NCBI GenBank assembly: GCA_035544955.1
Contig: DASZZN010000003.1
Location: forward strand, 1-33,684
Source of the DNA: Candidatus Dormiibacterota bacterium
Lineage (GTDB): Bacteria > Chloroflexota > Dormibacteria > CF-121
Reading direction: 5' to 3'
Length of the DNA: 33,684 nucleotides
Made by a program: the position numbers and the translations under genes. Within the stretch, counting starts at the first letter, position 1; every line of letters starts with the position of its first letter. The notes beneath the pieces are model-generated. The model ran no database searches. It saw only the letters and a list, made by a program, of their open reading frames with translations, and was not told where the DNA came from. Shown piece by piece: positions 18,087 through 27,020 of this stretch.

Positions 18087-18374
18087 GCCACTCAGTATCC
18101 CGTTCTGACTGGGGCTGCGATGCGAGGTCAGGTACTTGGGAAAGCGGGAGACGAGAGTTTCCCAAGCGAGTCCACGCCCAGAAATCGTATTCAGATCACC
18201 TACCAGCTGGCGGCATCGACCATCCTTCCTCCGGCCGCCAAGGGTGGTGCTCGCGGCCGCCCCCACGCGCATCATGGAACCAGCGAGCTATAGCTGAACC
18301 ATTAGCGAGAGACGGGACTCGGACCGGCGACCACGCTTACGAAGTCTTGAGGGGTCTGGTCGCGGTGCTGTCAC

Positions 18375-18830
18375 AACATTAAGGATGCGGATGGCCACGC
18401 CACGACGGGTGCGGGCGCTCACAAAGTCATACGACCAGGTGTGATTGGGCGCCGTCGCCGGCCGGTTCCACGACGCATTCTCGGCGGCGCCCCAGGCTTT
18501 CTTCCCCGATGCTTTGCTTCGCTGGGGCGGCACGCGATGGCCCTCCAAGCGCCACAGTCGCGCAATGCGCTTGCGGTTGACCCGCCAGCCAGCTCGCTGC
18601 AGCAGCGTGCAGACCATCCGATAGCCATACCGCGGATGCGCGGCCGCTTGCTCGTTCATCGCGGCCACGAGCTTCATCTCCTCCTGGGGCACCAATGGCA
18701 CATAGCGCTGCGTCGACCGATGTTGGCCCACCACTTTGCATGCCCGACGCTCGGAGACCTTGTGACCGCTTCACCAGATAGACCACCGCGTCCCTCCGTC
18801 GCGCCGGGCTCAGAATTTCCCCCGTTGCAG
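18375..18830 (-). pseudogene. IS3-family transposase OrfB, frameshifted and truncated
   Basis: The DDE integrase frame starts in ILSPARRRDAVVYLVKRSQ. One extra base near 18757-18760 shifts it to VSERRACKVVGQHRSTQRYV. It continues through the conserved HPRYGYRMVCTLLQRAGW and RKRIARLWRLEG (HTH_21-type region) to WSYDFVSARTRRG, where the first catalytic Asp of the DDE triad lies. Sequence homology ends after RILNVV near 18375, so the second Asp and the Glu are absent. The remaining open frame to 18288 is unrelated. Non-functional. Confidence 0.88.
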
Positions 18831-19088
18831 ATCCCGCAGCATCGAGATGTCGAGCGCCTGCTCGGCAACGATCCGCTTGAGACGCGAGTTCTCCTGTTCG
18901 AGCAACAGCAGCCGTTTGGCTTCGTCTTCCTTGAGCGCCCCGTAGCGGATGCGCCATCGGTAGAAGGTCTGGTCGGTAATCCCCACCTTCTTCGCCGCCA
19001 TGGGGATCGTCATCCCCTGGCCGGTAAGCTTCTCGACCTCTCGCAACTTGGCAATGATCTGCTCCACCGAGTGCCTCGTGGCGGGCAT
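18810..19088 (-). CDS. IS3-family transposase OrfA
   Basis: 92 aa, the DNA-binding first frame of an IS3-family transposase. It has a helix-turn-helix of the HTH_Tnp_1 type (HSVEQIIAKLREVEKLTGQG, then MAAKKVGITDQTFYRWRIRYG) followed by a leucine-zipper-like helix (KRLLLLEQENSRLKRIVAEQ) used for dimerisation. Length is normal for orfA and it looks intact. In intact IS3 elements a -1 ribosomal frameshift joins it to orfB; here orfB is damaged, so this protein could at most act as a free inhibitor or be silent. Confidence 0.92.
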   Translation of the reverse strand: MPATRHSVEQIIAKLREVEKLTGQGMTIPMAAKKVGITDQTFYRWRIRYGALKEDEAKRLLLLEQENSRLKRIVAEQALDISMLRDLQRGKF

Positions 19089-19223
19089 GCAACACCTCCA
19101 TCAGCCCTGACATTTTCGCTCGCTACAACATTGAAAATGGACCAGTTTTAGGGGGGCCGGACAGTAACGACTGTGCAGAGCGTTTACCCAGGCGTCGCCG
19201 CAGCAGCGGCAGCCTTCGCTACC

Positions 19224-19823: not shown

Positions 19824-22260
19824 CCAGGAGGCTGCCCGCCAGCAGCCGCCGCAGAGTCACCTCCTGGGAGGGCCGCGCTTGCCTGCTCTAGCCAGGACTT
19901 GAGCTTTGCAGGCCCAATCTTGTCCTGATAATTTGAATCCTTCGTCTTCAGTATGTTGACAGCGTCGCTTGCGCTCACGTTCAGACGCAGCGCCAAGTAG
20001 GCTGTGATTTCTAGAGTCGTCTGGGTTTGGACATTCCAGTAAATTGTTCCCGCCGCGGGCTCGTCTGAAATTCCCCAGATGCTCTGGTTCAAGGCGTAAC
20101 GCCGGTCAACGAGATCCTGCTCACCCGGATACGGAAGGGCATTCTCATTTCTCGTAATCCGTTCGTTCAGTTGGCAGAGGCACGAAAAGCCGGATAGTCC
20201 GGCCGGATCAACGTTGTTGGTTGGAGAGTCATAGGCGTATCCGTACGGCTCCCGCGTCCTAATGGCACGATCGCGGCTAAGAAACTGGCCGGTGCTTGGA
20301 TCGTAATATCGAGCCCGGAGGTAGTAAGAGTTGGACTCGGCATCAAGATATTGTCCGGCAAAGTCAAAAGGATTCAAGATTGTGCCGCTGCTGGACTTTA
20401 ACTTGCCGTATGCGTCGAAGGTATAGGTCGCCTGGTTCGCCCCGATAGCATCGGTTACCAATCGGGTGCTCCCCAGCTGATCGTGATGGAGCCACACCGC
20501 GATTGATGCGTTGATCTGCTCCAACGGTAAGCCGCCCGGGCCGTACAGGTAGGCTATTGATCCGTCCTTGATTAGCAGCGGCAGACTCCCCACCATATTC
20601 CATAAGAACTGGCTCGTTGTCCCAGAAACCGTTTTGCTCATCCGAAGGCCGTCCCCGTTGTAAGCATAGGTCGCAGTTTGGCCGTAAGCGGTCAAGCGGT
20701 TGGCTTGATCGTATGACAGGTTGGTCGCACCTCCGGTCGGCGGCGTGACTCTCGTCCGATTGCCACGGGTGTCGTATATATAGCTGGTGGAGCCAGTTGG
20801 CGGCGAGGCGCAGGATCCGCTAATGGCAGCCGTCCAGCAGATCTGGTCGGCGACATTAAAGACTTGCTGAGTGCTGCCCATCTGGGTCAGGTTGTCGCCA
20901 GCATCATAGGCATAAGCCGTCGCTGCCGGTGGGGCAGCGAGCAGGCCGTAGCGTTTGCGGCGCCGGCGTAGCAGACTTGGTTAGTCGTCGTGTACTGGTA
21001 GCTGCCGCTGGTAGAGGGGGCCGAGGAGTCGGAGGTCAGTTGATTAACGCTGTCGCGCGAGTACGCGGCCGAGAATAACGTCGTGCTGCCTCTCACGTCG
21101 GCGACAGCCATAAGCCGGTCGGCAGCATCGAAGCTGTACGTATCGACGACGCCAACCCCAGCCGGCAGGGTCTCGGTCGTAAGGTTGGAGTTGGCGTCGT
21201 AGGCGAACGTTGTCGTGTTGCTCAGCCAGTCCTGAACCGAGGTGAAGCGGCCCGCATCGTCATAAGCACGGGTGACGTTAAGGCTGCCCGGATAGGTGAT
21301 CGTGGTTGGCAGGCCGCGGAGGTTGTACGCGTACTGAACCTGAGCCGCATTGCCATTCGTGTAACTGGTCAGCCGATGGAGGCTATCCCAGACCCAGGAC
21401 GAGGTACCAGTTCCGTCCACCATGGCCGTTCGCTGACCATCGGCATCATAGGTGATGTTGCTGACGTTCGGCGTCGCCCCGTCGCTGTAGGTAATGGTTT
21501 TGAGTTCGTTCGCCACGTCGTAGGTAAATGTTGTGCAGCCGGTCTTCGGGGTGGCGGCGCAGTTGCCGCCGGGGTCTTGCTGACTCAGCCGGTTGCCGGC
21601 GCCATCGTACGAGTATGACGTCGCGTTCCCTAGTGCGTCCGTGGTCGAGGTGACCCGGGCCAGCGCATCATACGCGTACGTGACGATGGCACTGGCTTTG
21701 CCGTCTTTCTGATCAAGGACTGTCCCGTCCGGGTTGTAATCAGTCAACAGGGTCGTGGCGTCAGCGCGGGTTACGACTGTCAGCTCGTTGTCCTTGTCGT
21801 AGGTGTAACTGGTCGCGTGATTGTTGGCATCGGTGACCTTCGTAGCATTACGATCACCGTCATATTGGTAAGCGGTCTGATGGCTCAGTGGGTCGGTGGC
21901 GGTGAGCCTATCACCGAAGGGGTTGTAAGCGTAGCTTGTCGTGTACTGGCTTTGACAGCCGCAGCCCGCGACGTTTCCCTTTGGCGAGACTGTCGAGGTC
22001 ATCCGGCCCAAGGTGTCGTAGCCGTATGTGGTCGCGTTGCCAAGGGTATCAATGACCTTGATACGGTCCCCATACTGGTCGTAGGCGTACTGCCAAACTT
22101 TGCCGTCAGCGTCCGTCATCGACGTCATGTCCCCGGCCTTATTGGGGTCGTAAGTGTAGGTGACGGTCGCCGTTTGGCTGGTGCCCGTTAACGGCCGAGT
22201 GGTCGAGGCCAGGTTGCCACGCCCGTCGTAGGTGTTCGTGGTCGTGACGTTGAGGGGATC
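19814..22260 (-). pseudogene. YD-repeat (RHS) protein, 5'-truncated and frameshifted, with variable C-terminal domain
   Basis: Large surface or secreted repeat protein. Over 30 YD-type repeats of the form G-x-x-x-x-x-x-Y-x-Y-D are seen, for example QYAYDQYGDRIKVIDTLGN and YTYDKDNELTVVTRADAT. They run from the junction at 22260 to the RHS core end (LRARYYDPSTGQFLSRD, then YGYAYDSPTNNVDPAG). After the DPAG boundary come about 125 residues of a unique domain (FSCLCQLNERITRNENALPY to LKSWLEQASAALPGG), which in this family is usually the toxin tip; I do not recognise it. One base is missing near 20929-20935 (a C-run), splitting the gene into two frames. The 5' part, including any signal peptide, is lost at a sharp junction with the amidoligase gene. 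Confidence 0.88.
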
Positions 22261-23114
22261 CGAACCAGACGTTCGGCATCGAAATCGAGTTCGATGGGGC
22301 GAACCCCAACGCCGTAGCCCGCGCGTTGCATGAAGCCGGCTTAGCCTCGAGCGCACATCAGGAGCCGTATCACTCGAGCAGTCGCGTTCCAGGCAAGTGG
22401 ACGGTCGAGCACGACGCGACCGTCGCGGGCGAGCTGGTCAGTCCGATTCTGCAGGACACGCCGGAGACCTGGGCGCAGCTCGAACGTGTGTGTCAGATCC
22501 TGCAGGCACAGGGAGCGCGCGCGAGCGGCCGGACCGGTGGCCATGTCCACGTCGGGGTCGACTCCGCAGGGATGGACCACGACGTCAACAAGTTCCGCCG
22601 CGTCGCCCGAATGTGCGCCTGGGCCGAGGATTTGCTCTATCGCCTGGCGGCCGCGACGGGACGGCGAGGACGCAGCCACCGCGGCAGCACTAACGGCTAT
22701 CGCTGGTGCGGCCCCATGGGCTCGGGACAGTTTGAGGAGGTGCAAGGCCTCAGCGACCTGGCCAACCGGGTCGGCAGCAGTCACTCGGTCGGTCTGAACT
22801 TCGGCAACATCCTCGAACGCAACCGGACCATCGAGTACCGCTACTTCGACTCGAGCCTGGATCCCGCTCGCTTGCAGGCGAACATCAAGCTGGCCTGCTG
22901 GGTGACGAAGCGCGCGTCCGAGCTCCCGGATAACGCGATCCCCCGGGAACGTACGCCTCTCGGGAGTCATGGGAGCCCCCGCGATCCCGACGATGGCGAT
23001 CGGCTCCTGCGACGCTTCGCCGACCTCATCTTTGTTCGCCCCAAGGACAAGCTCAAGCTGTATTGGGTCTATCAGCGCTCGGCCTGGCAGCGGACGCGAG
23101 CGAGGGCCGCCTGA
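22257..23114 (+). CDS. Putative amidoligase (GS-like fold COOH-NH2 ligase), 5'-truncated
   Basis: Member of the Amidoligase_2 family, ATP-dependent ligases with a glutamine-synthetase-like fold predicted to form amide or peptide bonds. The frame opens at the junction and reads DPNQTFGIEIEFDGANPNA, the family's first strand with metal-binding Glu residues. It continues with WTVEHDATVAGELVSPILQD, GGHVHVGVDSAGMDHD (His/metal-binding strand), NRTIEYRYFDSSLDP and the C-terminal helices. Only the start codon and a few residues appear to be missing: a stop lies just upstream at 22251, and the first in-frame start (TTG 22326) would remove the EIEF strand. The stop TGA overlaps the ATG of the next gene. 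Known amidoligases occur in phages, plasmids and small modification operons. Confidence 0.85.
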   Translation, partial: DPNQTFGIEIEFDGANPNAVARALHEAGLASSAHQEPYHSSSRVPGKWTVEHDATVAGELVSPILQDTPETWAQLERVCQILQAQGARASGRTGGHVHVGVDSAGMDHDVNKFRRVARMCAWAEDLLYRLAAATGRRGRSHRGSTNGYRWCGPMGSGQFEEVQGLSDLANRVGSSHSVGLNFGNILERNRTIEYRYFDSSLDPARLQANIKLACWVTKRASELPDNAIPRERTPLGSHGSPRDPDDGDRLLRRFADLIFVRPKDKLKLYWVYQRSAWQRTRARAA

Positions 23115-23455
23115 TGTATCGGCCGGTCCATCCGGGAGATCCGCAGGAATTGCCCATGCGAATGCTTTTCCATCCAGTCGGCAACGGTGTCTATCTCAGC
23201 GCGTGCGAGGCCGACAGCATGCGCGGGCTGGTTGCCGCCCTCCTCGACAATCCTGCCTACGAAGCCGCTGCGCCGCAATCCCGGCTTGTGGAACGCCTTC
23301 GGATCGCGAACGACATCACGCTGCTCGCCGAGCTCGAAGGCCGGCCGCTGCTTATCTCAGATCGCGAAGGACCGGACACCATCGTGATCGTGTCCGACCA
23401 CACGTTCATTCGCTCACTGAACCAGGCTGGGTTCGTTTCTTTGACGCAGGCCTGA
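23114..23455 (+). CDS. Small protein coupled to the amidoligase, possibly frameshifted
   Basis: 113 aa as read, no recognised family. It starts at ATG 23114, sharing bases with the amidoligase stop, so translation is coupled. The sequence (MLFHPVGNGVYLSACEADSM, then ERLRIANDITLLAELEGRPL and DTIVIVSDHTFIRSL) is a regular alpha/beta pattern. The frame ends at 23455, but from about 23415 a second frame reads SLTEPGWVRFFDAGLTAITD and FRQWMRTLDEDSLARFERFL with coding-like composition to a stop at 23640. One extra or missing base at 23411-23430 would join both into a protein of about 175 aa. So the true gene may be 23114-23640. Function unknown; probably substrate or partner for the ligase. Confidence 0.65.
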   Translation: MYRPVHPGDPQELPMRMLFHPVGNGVYLSACEADSMRGLVAALLDNPAYEAAAPQSRLVERLRIANDITLLAELEGRPLLISDREGPDTIVIVSDHTFIRSLNQAGFVSLTQA

Positions 23456-23711
23456 CCGCTATCACGGATCCTCAACGCTTCGACTTCCGGCAATGGATGC
23501 GCACGCTCGACGAGGATAGCCTGGCACGATTCGAGAGGTTCCTCGACCTTGCGGCTGAGGCGACGGTCTTGAGCGACCGCTCCGCTGGCCAAGATGCCGC
23601 TTTAAGGAAGAGCGCTCGCGGCCGGTCTCAAAATAGCTGACCAACCGGTCCTGTCATCGCCTTCGGCCAAAGATACTTGCCTTCGTTTGGCATCGTAGTT
23701 AGGATGCCGGC

Positions 23712-25342
23712 ATGAGAATCGTACGCGCGAAACAGTTACCCGAAATTGCCGTCAAATTTCTGCGGATGAGCGATGCTCCGACACAGTCGCCCGAGAACTC
23801 TCTCGAAGGTCAGGACTGGGGCATCGACGAAGGGATCATCAGAAACCCCAGCCATGCATTGTTCGGCATTAACGTCATCCATACGTTCCGCCTCCTCCAC
23901 GCGTCACATCGCGGATTGAAAGGCGTCGAGGTTTTTGACGAGATGATCCGCTGGGCTCGCGCCGGACGGTTCAAGTACATCCTTGTCGACAAGTACGACC
24001 GCTTCGGCCGCAACCTCCGCGAAGCGGTCACCGTCGAGGATGAATTGAACGAAGCGGGCGTCTACATCGTCTCCGCCAAAGAGCAGTTCGATCAGCGACA
24101 GCCAGCGGGATGGCTCGCTAAGACGCTGATGCAGATGCTGGCCGACTTCTATAGCCGGAACCTCGCCACCGAGACTCGAAAAGGGATGCGGGCAAAGCTC
24201 GAACGCGGCGAGTGGCCATGGGCGGCTCCGCTGGGCTACAGACATCCGAGCCGGCGCACTGAGCGAGGACGCGCGGTCAGCATCCTTGAGGAAGATCCGG
24301 TCACTGGACCCCGCGTCCGGTGGGCATGGCAGGAATTCGCAACCGGGAAGTATACGTTGGACCAATGGATGGATACCTGGAATGCCCAGGAAGTCATTAA
24401 TCCTATCGGGAAGCGTCTCGTGAGGTCCCAGTGGCATGGCCTCTTCCGAAATCGGTCTACGTCGGAAAAATGCTCACTCGGCTCTTTCCAGGCGAAGAGT
24501 TCGAAGGCCACGAGGAAATGCCGCGACTTGTCAGCCCGGGAACCTTTGACCGGGTACAAGAGCTCCTTGACATCCGCAGCAGCCATAAGAAACAACACCA
24601 TGTCAACGACTACCCGCTCGTCAAGATTCTCTGGAGTCAGGAGGGTGGCTGTGGTTTCCACGGGGAGACTCAGCCTAAGAAGAAAGCCTCCTATTACCGG
24701 ACAAAGGCCAAGGTTGATGGGCGGAAGATCTATCTGGGCCAGAAAGGGGTCGAGAGCGAGTTCAGCAGGTTGTTGGCGCGAATCCAGATCCGTCCTGAGA
24801 TGGCGGATGGATGTAGGGCGGAACTGCTGGCCCGGCTCAAGGAGCGCGTTCCTGGGCAGCGCCAGCTTGAGGCGGACAAGCTCGAGAAGCAGGTGCATCG
24901 CCTTGAGGAAAAGGCGAGAACGCTGATCCGTCTGCACACAAACGGCGATATCTCGTACGACGAGTTCAGGGGCGAACGGTCACTGAACGAGGCCGCCCAG
25001 AGGGAGCTTCGGGAGCGGCTGAGCCATGCCAGCGCGGGCTTCGAGAAAGAGGCGCACGACGTCACCACCGGGCTGGCGATTTTGTCGAGCCTCGAGGTCA
25101 TCTGGGACCGGTGCGCGACGGCGGAACGGCGGCGAGAATTCGCAGAACTCCTGTTCTCCCGCGTGACCGTCGACCAATACTCTCGGACCCGGGATTGGGC
25201 TCTTAATAATCCTTTTCAGCGGCTTTTTGAATTCGCCCAGCCCGGTTCGAAACTTGTTCTGGATGGCGACCCCGAGCGGACTCGGGGCGCAAATACCATC
25301 GGTTCTCCTCAAATACGTTTGATATATCCGCACACCAAATAA
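23712..25342 (+). pseudogene. Large serine recombinase with a one-base frameshift
   Basis: Site-specific recombinase of the large serine family. Resolvase domain: VKFLRMSDAPTQSPENS with likely nucleophile Ser20, then YILVDKYDRFGRNLREAV (the DR-x-x-R motif, about residues 93-105) and MQMLADFYSRNLATETRKGM. It is followed by the Recombinase domain (GEWPWAAPLGYRHPS, QEFATGKYTLDQWMDTWN, SQWHGLFRN). Near 24450-24455 one base is missing; in the next frame PVYVGKMLTRLFPGEEFEGH continues. Then come a beta-ribbon or zinc-ribbon-like part (GGCGFHGETQPKKKASYY), a coiled coil (QLEADKLEKQVHRLEEKART) and the C-terminus. Restored length is about 543 aa, normal for the family. ATG 23712 starts the product MRIVRAKQLPE. 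The last codons coincide with repeat copy D. Confidence 0.92.
25266..25323 (+). repeat. Dispersed recombinase-tail repeat, copy D (in recombinase gene)
   Basis: This copy forms the final codons of the recombinase gene: GCGACCCCGAGCGGACTCGG, then GCGCAAATACCATCGGT, ending CAAATACGTTTGAT. The hairpin is CCCCGAG/CTCGGGG. The gene continues only 19 bases past it. Confidence 0.9.
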
Positions 25343-25504: not shown

Positions 25505-25897
25505 GTGGGCCTGCTCGATCCTAAGCGTCAAGTCGAACTCGATGAGCTGCTGACCGCCCTTGCAGCGGCCGGATCGTCGCCTGACGATCCCGTCGTGATG
25601 TACCTCCGTGAGATTGCGTCCGTTGAAGCGCTGCCACGCGAGACGGAAGCCGACCTGCTCGCCGCCATCCGGCGCGGTGACGAAGCTGCACACTACCGGT
25701 TGACCGAGCTCAACCTCTGGGAAGTCGTCCGCATGGCGCAGCAATTTATTGGCCGTGGAGTGTCATTTCTCGATCTCGTGCAGGAGGGCAACCTTGGCTT
25801 GATTCGAGCAGTCTCCGAAGTCCCTTTAGAGCAGGAATCGTTCGGCGAGAAACGTGATGCGCGCGTCCGCGAGGCGATCGAGGGGGCCTTCGGTTGA
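25505..25897 (+). CDS. Free-standing, truncated sigma-70-like protein
   Basis: 130 aa. Residues about 27-60 (DDPVVMYLREIASVEALPRE and following) match sigma region 1.2. Residues about 55-102 (ADLLAAIRRGDEAAHYRLTE, then MAQQFIGRGVSFLDLVQEGN and LGLIRAV) match regions 2.1-2.2, which contact the beta' clamp. After LIRAV a true sigma factor would continue into region 2.3-2.4 (-10 melting and recognition) and regions 3-4; none of this is present, and the last 27 residues are unrelated. Start GTG 25505 with AGGTGA just upstream. It could be a shortened sigma pseudogene or a small RNA-polymerase-binding protein that occupies the clamp without reading promoters. No neighbour helps decide. Confidence 0.8.
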   Translation: MGLLDPKRQVELDELLTALAAAGSSPDDPVVMYLREIASVEALPRETEADLLAAIRRGDEAAHYRLTELNLWEVVRMAQQFIGRGVSFLDLVQEGNLGLIRAVSEVPLEQESFGEKRDARVREAIEGAFG

Positions 25898-25980: not shown

Positions 25981-26006
25981 GTTCGATTAGTGTCCGCCAC
26001 GGGCTA
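25981..26006 (+). repeat. 26-bp direct repeat, left copy
   Basis: Begins GTTCGATTAGTGTCCGCC and ends ACGGGCTA; exactly identical to 26570-26595. A shorter, imperfect relative (GTTCGAATCCGCCACGGGCT) lies at 25377-25396 just after the recombinase gene. Confidence 0.92.
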
Positions 26007-26060
26007 TGACCGTAATTTGCCTGCATCGCCCGCTCCTCACAAGGGAAGAGCTTGCCTCGC

Positions 26061-26569: not shown

Positions 26570-26595
26570 GTTCGATTAGTGTCCGCCACGGGCTA
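26570..26595 (+). repeat. 26-bp direct repeat, right copy
   Basis: Identical to 25981-26006, same orientation, 589 bases apart. Together the copies enclose the small gene at 26061-26492. Confidence 0.92.
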
Positions 26596-27020
26596 AAACC
26601 CCACTTCTGTCCTTACGACTAACGTCGCGAGTTCCTTAACGGCAACTCGATGGATGGATTCGATTGGTGCACTCGGCTGAGCCGGTGGCGCGACGTGATC
26701 CGCGTGAGGTCTCAACTCGACGGTACCGCTCCTCGAGGCCACAACTCCTTCTCATCGTCTGAGAGATGGGTGGCTACCGGATTCCATGACCGGCATGCGC
26801 CTCGACGAAACGCTGCCGGCATTCCGCGCCAAGTAAACGGCGGTCAGCGATCGCCGGATGCCTCGATCGTTGCCCGCTCTCGTCTGCTTCGCCACCAGCC
26901 CGTCACAGACCGCTCATACGCTGGTCCCAGATGCTGGCTCAGTTGCGCAGACTTGTCAGCCACCGGTTGGCACTCGACGTTGGCATCGGCATCGCTCTTG
27001 CCGTGCCCGTTGTGCCGTGC
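26596..27020. other. Intergenic stretch without recognisable content
   Basis: One frame (26650-27030) stays open for 126 codons, but its product is Arg/Ser/Cys-rich with no family resemblance and no ribosome site, so I do not call it a gene. No repeat or RNA was recognised. Confidence 0.5.

Follow-up and report, generated by a model that had tools for sequence, protein, structure and literature searches.

What does the small gene behind an amidoligase do, and do the two genes make up a mobile module? These questions are raised by a 33,684-nucleotide (nt) stretch from a Candidatus Dormiibacterota bacterium (contig DASZZN010000003.1, hereafter the window), in which an Amidoligase_2 gene overlaps a short gene whose product, here called the partner, belongs to no known family. 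Ligases of this family form amides from a carboxylate and an amine with ATP, and they are widely annotated in mobile elements, where we know of no targets for them; Iyer et al. 2009, cited through PMC11318856, reportedly described predicted COOH-NH2 ligases. An earlier note on this DNA had proposed a mobile amide-ligase module consisting of the pair and a serine recombinase. We found that ligase and partner stay together over great divergence, mostly translationally coupled, and that the pair was carried together into toxin-like proteins of the type VII secretion system (T7SS) type in Nonomuraea and relatives. The window itself holds a 5'-truncated remnant of this conserved two-gene unit. Across three bacterial groups, the pair is conserved, nearly always with the two genes adjacent, both on conjugative elements and within toxin-like proteins, a pattern that suggests control of the enzyme by the partner. 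In the window, the pair comprises:

22257..23114, plus strand: 5'-truncated Amidoligase_2 gene, recognized by Pfam PF12224, by alignment with the 428-residue copies of contig C14 and locus L059, and by in-frame stops just upstream.
23114..23455, plus strand: partner gene, 113 residues, acidic (pI 5.0), full length by comparison with relatives.

The window ligase matches PF12224 with an E-value of 1e-20 (75.1 bits against a curated cut-off of 22). It keeps EIEF, GGHVHVG and RTIEYRYFD, as the earlier note had read them, and the catalytic or metal-site motifs EIE, HVH and EYR are conserved in the ligase alignment. Its catalytic domain is complete from the first strand (EIEF). The gene is truncated at 22254, which the earlier note had missed; relative to the 428-residue copies, it has lost its start codon and about 142 residues of the N-terminus. 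Stop codons lie just upstream in the same frame, and no start codon precedes the EIEF strand. Because the first in-frame start, a TTG at 22326, lies past that strand, this copy is unable to make a complete catalytic domain, and no translatable full-length Amidoligase_2 gene is present in the window. The overlap reported earlier is real: the partner ATG (23114-23116) shares one base with the ligase TGA stop (23112-23114), giving TGATG. The partner is 62% identical to the 118-residue partner on C14 and 75% identical to that of L059. Consistent with the earlier description, it has no Pfam or NCBIfam match, and its relatives fall in no PHROG family. A two-frame, frameshifted partner gene reaching 23640, also described earlier, was rejected; relatives end where 23455 ends, homology stops near 23446-23455, and nothing homologous lies beyond.

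An intact locus was found on contig C14 of the same Dormibacterota genome. It encodes a ParB-like protein, DUF4417, a RimK-like ATP-grasp protein, a 428-residue amidoligase, the 118-residue partner, an excisionase-type helix-turn-helix protein and a tyrosine integrase. Adjoining this integrase is a 651-residue frame (L009:7886-9841) that combines an N-terminal HhH-GPD DNA-repair glycosylase domain with a cytosine-5 DNA methylase. The ligase alignment was used to retrieve 42 loci from genomes and three from viral contigs, and partners were sought with iterated hidden Markov models. Of the 42 genome loci, 34 have a partner homologue behind the ligase, far above chance. Three of the eight exceptions are at contig ends (L021, L026, L046), three are giant proteins (L050, L054, L058), and two carry a different small gene in its place (L053 and L057). 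For L026, the same genome carries the partner at the far end of a contig, which fits a single circular molecule.

The reverse search gave the same picture. In 110 genomes of the window's class, Dormibacteria, ten partner places occur in seven genomes, most of them adjoining a ligase; two follow the final residues of a ligase at the very start of a contig, and one (G075) is next to an ATP-grasp gene close to the end of its contig, where no ligase can be seen. Both partner places in 291 Clostridia-class genomes and all of those in 250 Nonomuraea-order genomes adjoin a ligase, and no clear orphan partner homologue was found in these three sets. The earlier note had named two patterns as fatal to its proposal, a partner not conserved beside other amidoligases and partner homologues without the ligase. 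Neither was clearly seen, and the case for a conserved, coupled partner is stronger than that note had claimed. As for the partner being phage or plasmid cargo, a tblastn search with the C14 partner against phage and plasmid collections gave no match, but divergent partner homologues are present in Streptomyces and Nonomuraea plasmids.

The two genes are mostly closely spaced: of 67 ligase-partner distances, a set that includes redundant loci, 43 are overlaps of -1 or -4 nt or gaps of less than 60 nt (range -4 to +60 nt). At L018 (1002-3651), a DNA methyltransferase and an AAA-type ATPase stand between ligase and partner in an operon-like run, and the same type of ATPase lies upstream of ParB in L017. 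Both frames are under purifying selection, with dN/dS of about 0.05 for the ligase and 0.2-0.35 for the partner, and the dN divergence of the partner is approximately 3-7 times that of the ligase. The same three groups appear in the ligase tree and in the partner tree, and both recover a single toxin clade (support 0.999 and 0.72). Based on this agreement, the two genes appear to have been transferred together.

Eight Nonomuraea or Actinomadura loci encode the ligase as the final domain of a long protein (whole open reading frames of up to 2107 residues), and the partner gene is directly behind it, the position expected of an immunity gene. Where readable, the N-termini of these proteins are homologous to WXG100_2 proteins. 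Amidoligase_2 as the C-terminal tip of WXG100_2-type toxin-like proteins was observed in L039, L040, L043, L044, L047, L048, L051-L053 and L057. In L053 and L057, an unrelated small conserved gene occupies the immunity position, as expected if immunity proteins are exchanged. A trafficking domain together with a C-terminal toxin tip is present, or indicated by homology, only in the Nonomuraea-type proteins and is found neither in the window nor in C14 and the other element loci. In addition, a frame of about 6880 residues is open across the whole of L054:2-20653; it encodes two amidoligase domains as well as a Scabin-like ADP-ribosyltransferase domain.

Outside the toxin-like proteins, the pair belongs to a larger conserved gene block of conjugative or integrative elements and makes up a small share of it. 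In Streptomyces, Kutzneria, Acidimicrobiia, Nitriliruptorales and Dormibacterota, an element core is formed by TraG-like and replication-relaxation genes, ParB, DUF4417, one or more ligases and the partner, and ATP-grasp is often, not always, part of this block. Clostridia and related Firmicutes have a shorter form, DUF4417-ligase-partner, which in L022 and L023 is preceded by ParA and ParB. Streptomyces-type loci add a gamma-glutamylcyclotransferase (GGCT) and a class II amidotransferase. DUF4417, itself often preceded by ParB, is found upstream of the ligase in 22 of the 42 genome loci. Most Dormibacterota and actinobacterial loci with DUF4417 have ParB close upstream of it; ParB is missing from the window. 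Of 17 non-actinobacterial pairs, 8 have an integrase or recombinase gene no more than about 1.2 kb downstream. It is of the serine type, on either strand, in the window, L019, L022, L023, L037 and L041, and of the tyrosine type in C14 and L018. The recombinase association of the pair is real, and the enzyme type is interchangeable. No tRNA att sites were found near the pairs, and the ParB, DUF4417, ATP-grasp, ligase and partner of L059 match no defence-system model in PADLOC. Co-mobility with recombinases, which the earlier note had suggested checking, is supported by these neighbours.

The AlphaFold2 model of the window partner is confident (pLDDT 92.9). Neither PDB nor BFVD yielded a match at E <= 0.001 in a fold search with this model; no homology to a solved structure, by sequence or by fold, and no enzyme-like fold were found. 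The ligase likewise has no match among PDB sequences. Partners are uniformly acidic (pI 4.7-5.3). Only R61, S101 and L102 are near-invariant, the C-termini vary in sequence and length, and the alignment contains no conserved acceptor Lys, Glu or Gln.

With its glutamine-synthetase fold, the ligase would activate a carboxylate with ATP and couple it to an amine of a target that belongs to the cell or to the element, and the partner would serve as its dedicated regulator at the protein level. Most likely, the partner would be a stoichiometric inhibitor or immunity protein that binds the ligase, so that the ligase stays inactive in the producing cell until the element or the toxin takes effect elsewhere. 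We tentatively favour such a dedicated inhibitor or immunity protein because the partner is in the immunity slot behind toxin tips, is acidic, evolves faster than the ligase and is replaced by another small gene in two loci. Several observations weigh against it. Immunity genes often occur as orphans, and none was found for the partner in the genome sweeps; the partner also shows stronger conservation than is typical of immunity proteins. In Streptomyces-type elements, a single partner accompanies two or three ligases. Toxin trafficking domains are absent from the element loci, and their ligases adjoin biosynthetic-looking genes (ATP-grasp, class II amidotransferase, gamma-glutamylcyclotransferase), which suggest a pathway rather than a toxin. 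Finally, the profile link between the Dormibacterota/Clostridia and actinobacterial partner groups is weak (hhalign probability 20%, E 1e-3); the two groups align over the same motifs in the same order, and their homology is likely, not proven.

The lack of orphan partners and the sharing of one partner among several ligases, up to three in one operon, favour instead an obligate subunit or specificity factor that folds or stabilises the ligase or directs it to its substrate, the pair being one enzyme. This is possible, at a lower probability than inhibition, and the nearly strict co-occurrence, the translational coupling and the purifying selection on both genes point the same way. In contrast, the amidoligases of phage Kovu, of L050/L054/L058 and of L053/L057 have no partner, so the fold does not need one, and a position behind C-terminal toxin-type domains is that of an immunity protein. 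The earlier note had offered substrate, adaptor or inhibitor as roles; inhibitor and subunit both remain. Substrate is disfavoured: a small, acidic protein encoded beside the ligase could be a Pup-like or graspetide-like peptide that serves as substrate or tag, but the well-folded, globular model, the variable C-termini and the lack of a conserved acceptor residue make this highly improbable.

Another possibility concerns what the whole block does. In the DUF4417 model (pTM 0.81), eight strands alternate with helices, and the Cys-rich N-terminus is of low confidence. All of the 50 best PDB matches to this model are structures of tRNA-guanine transglycosylase (TGT; E 3e-6, probability 1.00, TM approximately 0.5). 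Comparison of the DUF4417 profile with the TGT profile, with DHDPS as a control, was not significant (hhalign E 0.07-0.18, probability below 1%), and DUF4417 has no match among PDB sequences. Because the redundancy of TGT in the PDB inflates the list and the profile comparisons are not significant, the likeness is a fold-level lead. It would fit a nucleic-acid modification system of conjugative elements in which ParB guides, DUF4417 performs a transglycosylase-like base exchange, the amidoligase, with ATP-grasp, amidates or extends a carboxylated base, and the partner regulates the ligase. The frequent placement of DUF4417 upstream of ligases and behind ParB is consistent with this scheme. Moreover, ParB with a TGT parallels DpdB with DpdA (PMC12839542), and a published precedent exists for an ATP-dependent amide ligase that acts on a carboxyl handle in phage DNA, namely CmoY, which has ParB-domain neighbours (PMC12783734). 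Against it, the TGT link has no sequence-level support and TGT is heavily over-represented in the PDB; in several DUF4417 proteins, the residue at the position of the TGT nucleophile looks like Asn, in an alignment that is not significant; the loci read showed no 7-deazaguanine genes, no search having been aimed at them; and toxin-type ligase copies have no DUF4417. We regard nucleic-acid modification by the ligase block as a serious but unproven option, and as an unlikely one. Less likely still is its fullest form, in which ParB, DUF4417 (as a divergent transglycosylase fold) and the ATP-grasp/glutamine-synthetase-like amidoligase would constitute an undescribed DNA or RNA hypermodification pathway in conjugative-element cores of Actinobacteria, Dormibacterota and Clostridia, the partner being a new-fold ligase inhibitor that was co-opted as an immunity protein once the ligase tipped secreted toxins.

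The surroundings of the window pair bear on the state of this copy. Three further features are:

22254..22258, no strand: junction of two truncated genes (GGATCC), with the minus-strand Rhs gene to the left and the amidoligase to the right.
20887..22256, minus strand: broken Rhs-repeat gene (PF05593, E 2e-50), single copy in the genome, its 5' part replaced by the antisense of the ligase.
23712..25342, plus strand: serine recombinase, frameshifted near 24440 (frames 23712-24926 and 24431-25342; Resolvase E 5e-17; phrog_95 integrase E 3e-27).

DNA homology to L059, C14 and L018 begins exactly at 22254, with identities of 88% to L059 (an IMG/VR contig and the closest relative), 79% to the C14 paralogue and 74% to L018. 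At this point the ligase is fused head-to-head to the broken Rhs gene. GATCC is common to both sides of the joint, and L059 has it natively on the ligase side. The joint fits either microhomology or chimeric ligation. A second copy of the lost ATP-grasp/ligase N-terminus or of the Rhs stretch, which would favour mis-assembly, was found nowhere else in the genome. The Rhs gene is an adjoining remnant outside the module. The large serine recombinase that the earlier note had placed here does have a Resolvase domain, and it starts at 23712, but the frameshift leaves no intact gene; it is a neighbour of the pair and not specific to it, since other pairs have serine or tyrosine enzymes there. A working amide-ligase module in the window, mobilised by the serine recombinase there, would agree with the serine recombinase genes behind the five other pairs listed above. 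It is scarcely credible here, where the ligase has no start codon or N-terminus, the recombinase is frameshifted, a broken Rhs gene stands at the junction, and ATP-grasp, DUF4417 and ParB are missing; the window copy is probably dead. Other features nearby are IS3-type transposase remains beside the broken Rhs gene, recognized by eye from the translation (18288-19113; orfA intact-looking, orfB a fragment), a short frame similar to sigma-70 region 1.2/2, apparently a sigma-factor fragment (25505-25897), and a 31-nt direct repeat (94%; 25981-26011 and 26570-26600, 589 nt apart) flanking an unassigned minus-strand frame of 165 residues.

Compared with known systems, the ligase resembles Amidoligase_2 (PF12224, phrog_2443) in its family match and its EIE, HVH and EYR motifs, as well as in the GGCT and class II amidotransferase neighbours shared by Streptomyces elements and phage Kovu. 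It differs in its constant small downstream partner and, in many loci, in the TraG-relaxase-ParB-DUF4417 core upstream; the window copy is also truncated. The Nonomuraea-type loci resemble polymorphic toxin/immunity pairs of the WXG100_2 T7SS type, with the ligase as C-terminal tip and the partner as the next gene, whereas in the window, in C14 and on plasmids the ligase stands alone, in an element core that has no trafficking domains. The Dpd system (DpdA TGT, DpdB ParB) is similar in having ParB beside a TGT-like barrel, but DUF4417 has no sequence match to TGT or DpdA, and no DpdC was seen. CmoX/CmoY DNA hypermodification is a precedent for an amide ligase on a carboxyl handle; no CmoX was seen here, and the ligase fold is glutamine-synthetase-like rather than asparagine-synthetase-like. 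ParB-CTPase-DUF4417 fusions are found in phages and enriched in prophages (PMC12704722); the same two domains are separate neighbouring genes here, followed by amidoligase and partner, and that paper does not mention an amidoligase or ligase. A 'polyvalent protein' reading was set aside; the polyvalent-protein paper makes no mention of amidoligases. No description of the ParB-DUF4417-amidoligase-partner block was found in the open-access literature searched; Iyer et al. 2009 was outside that search, and an earlier description there is possible.

Collectively, a new-fold partner conserved across phyla, in element cores and behind toxin tips, offers a handle on the control of amidoligases, and the resemblance of DUF4417 to TGT provides a testable guess at what these amidoligases may modify.

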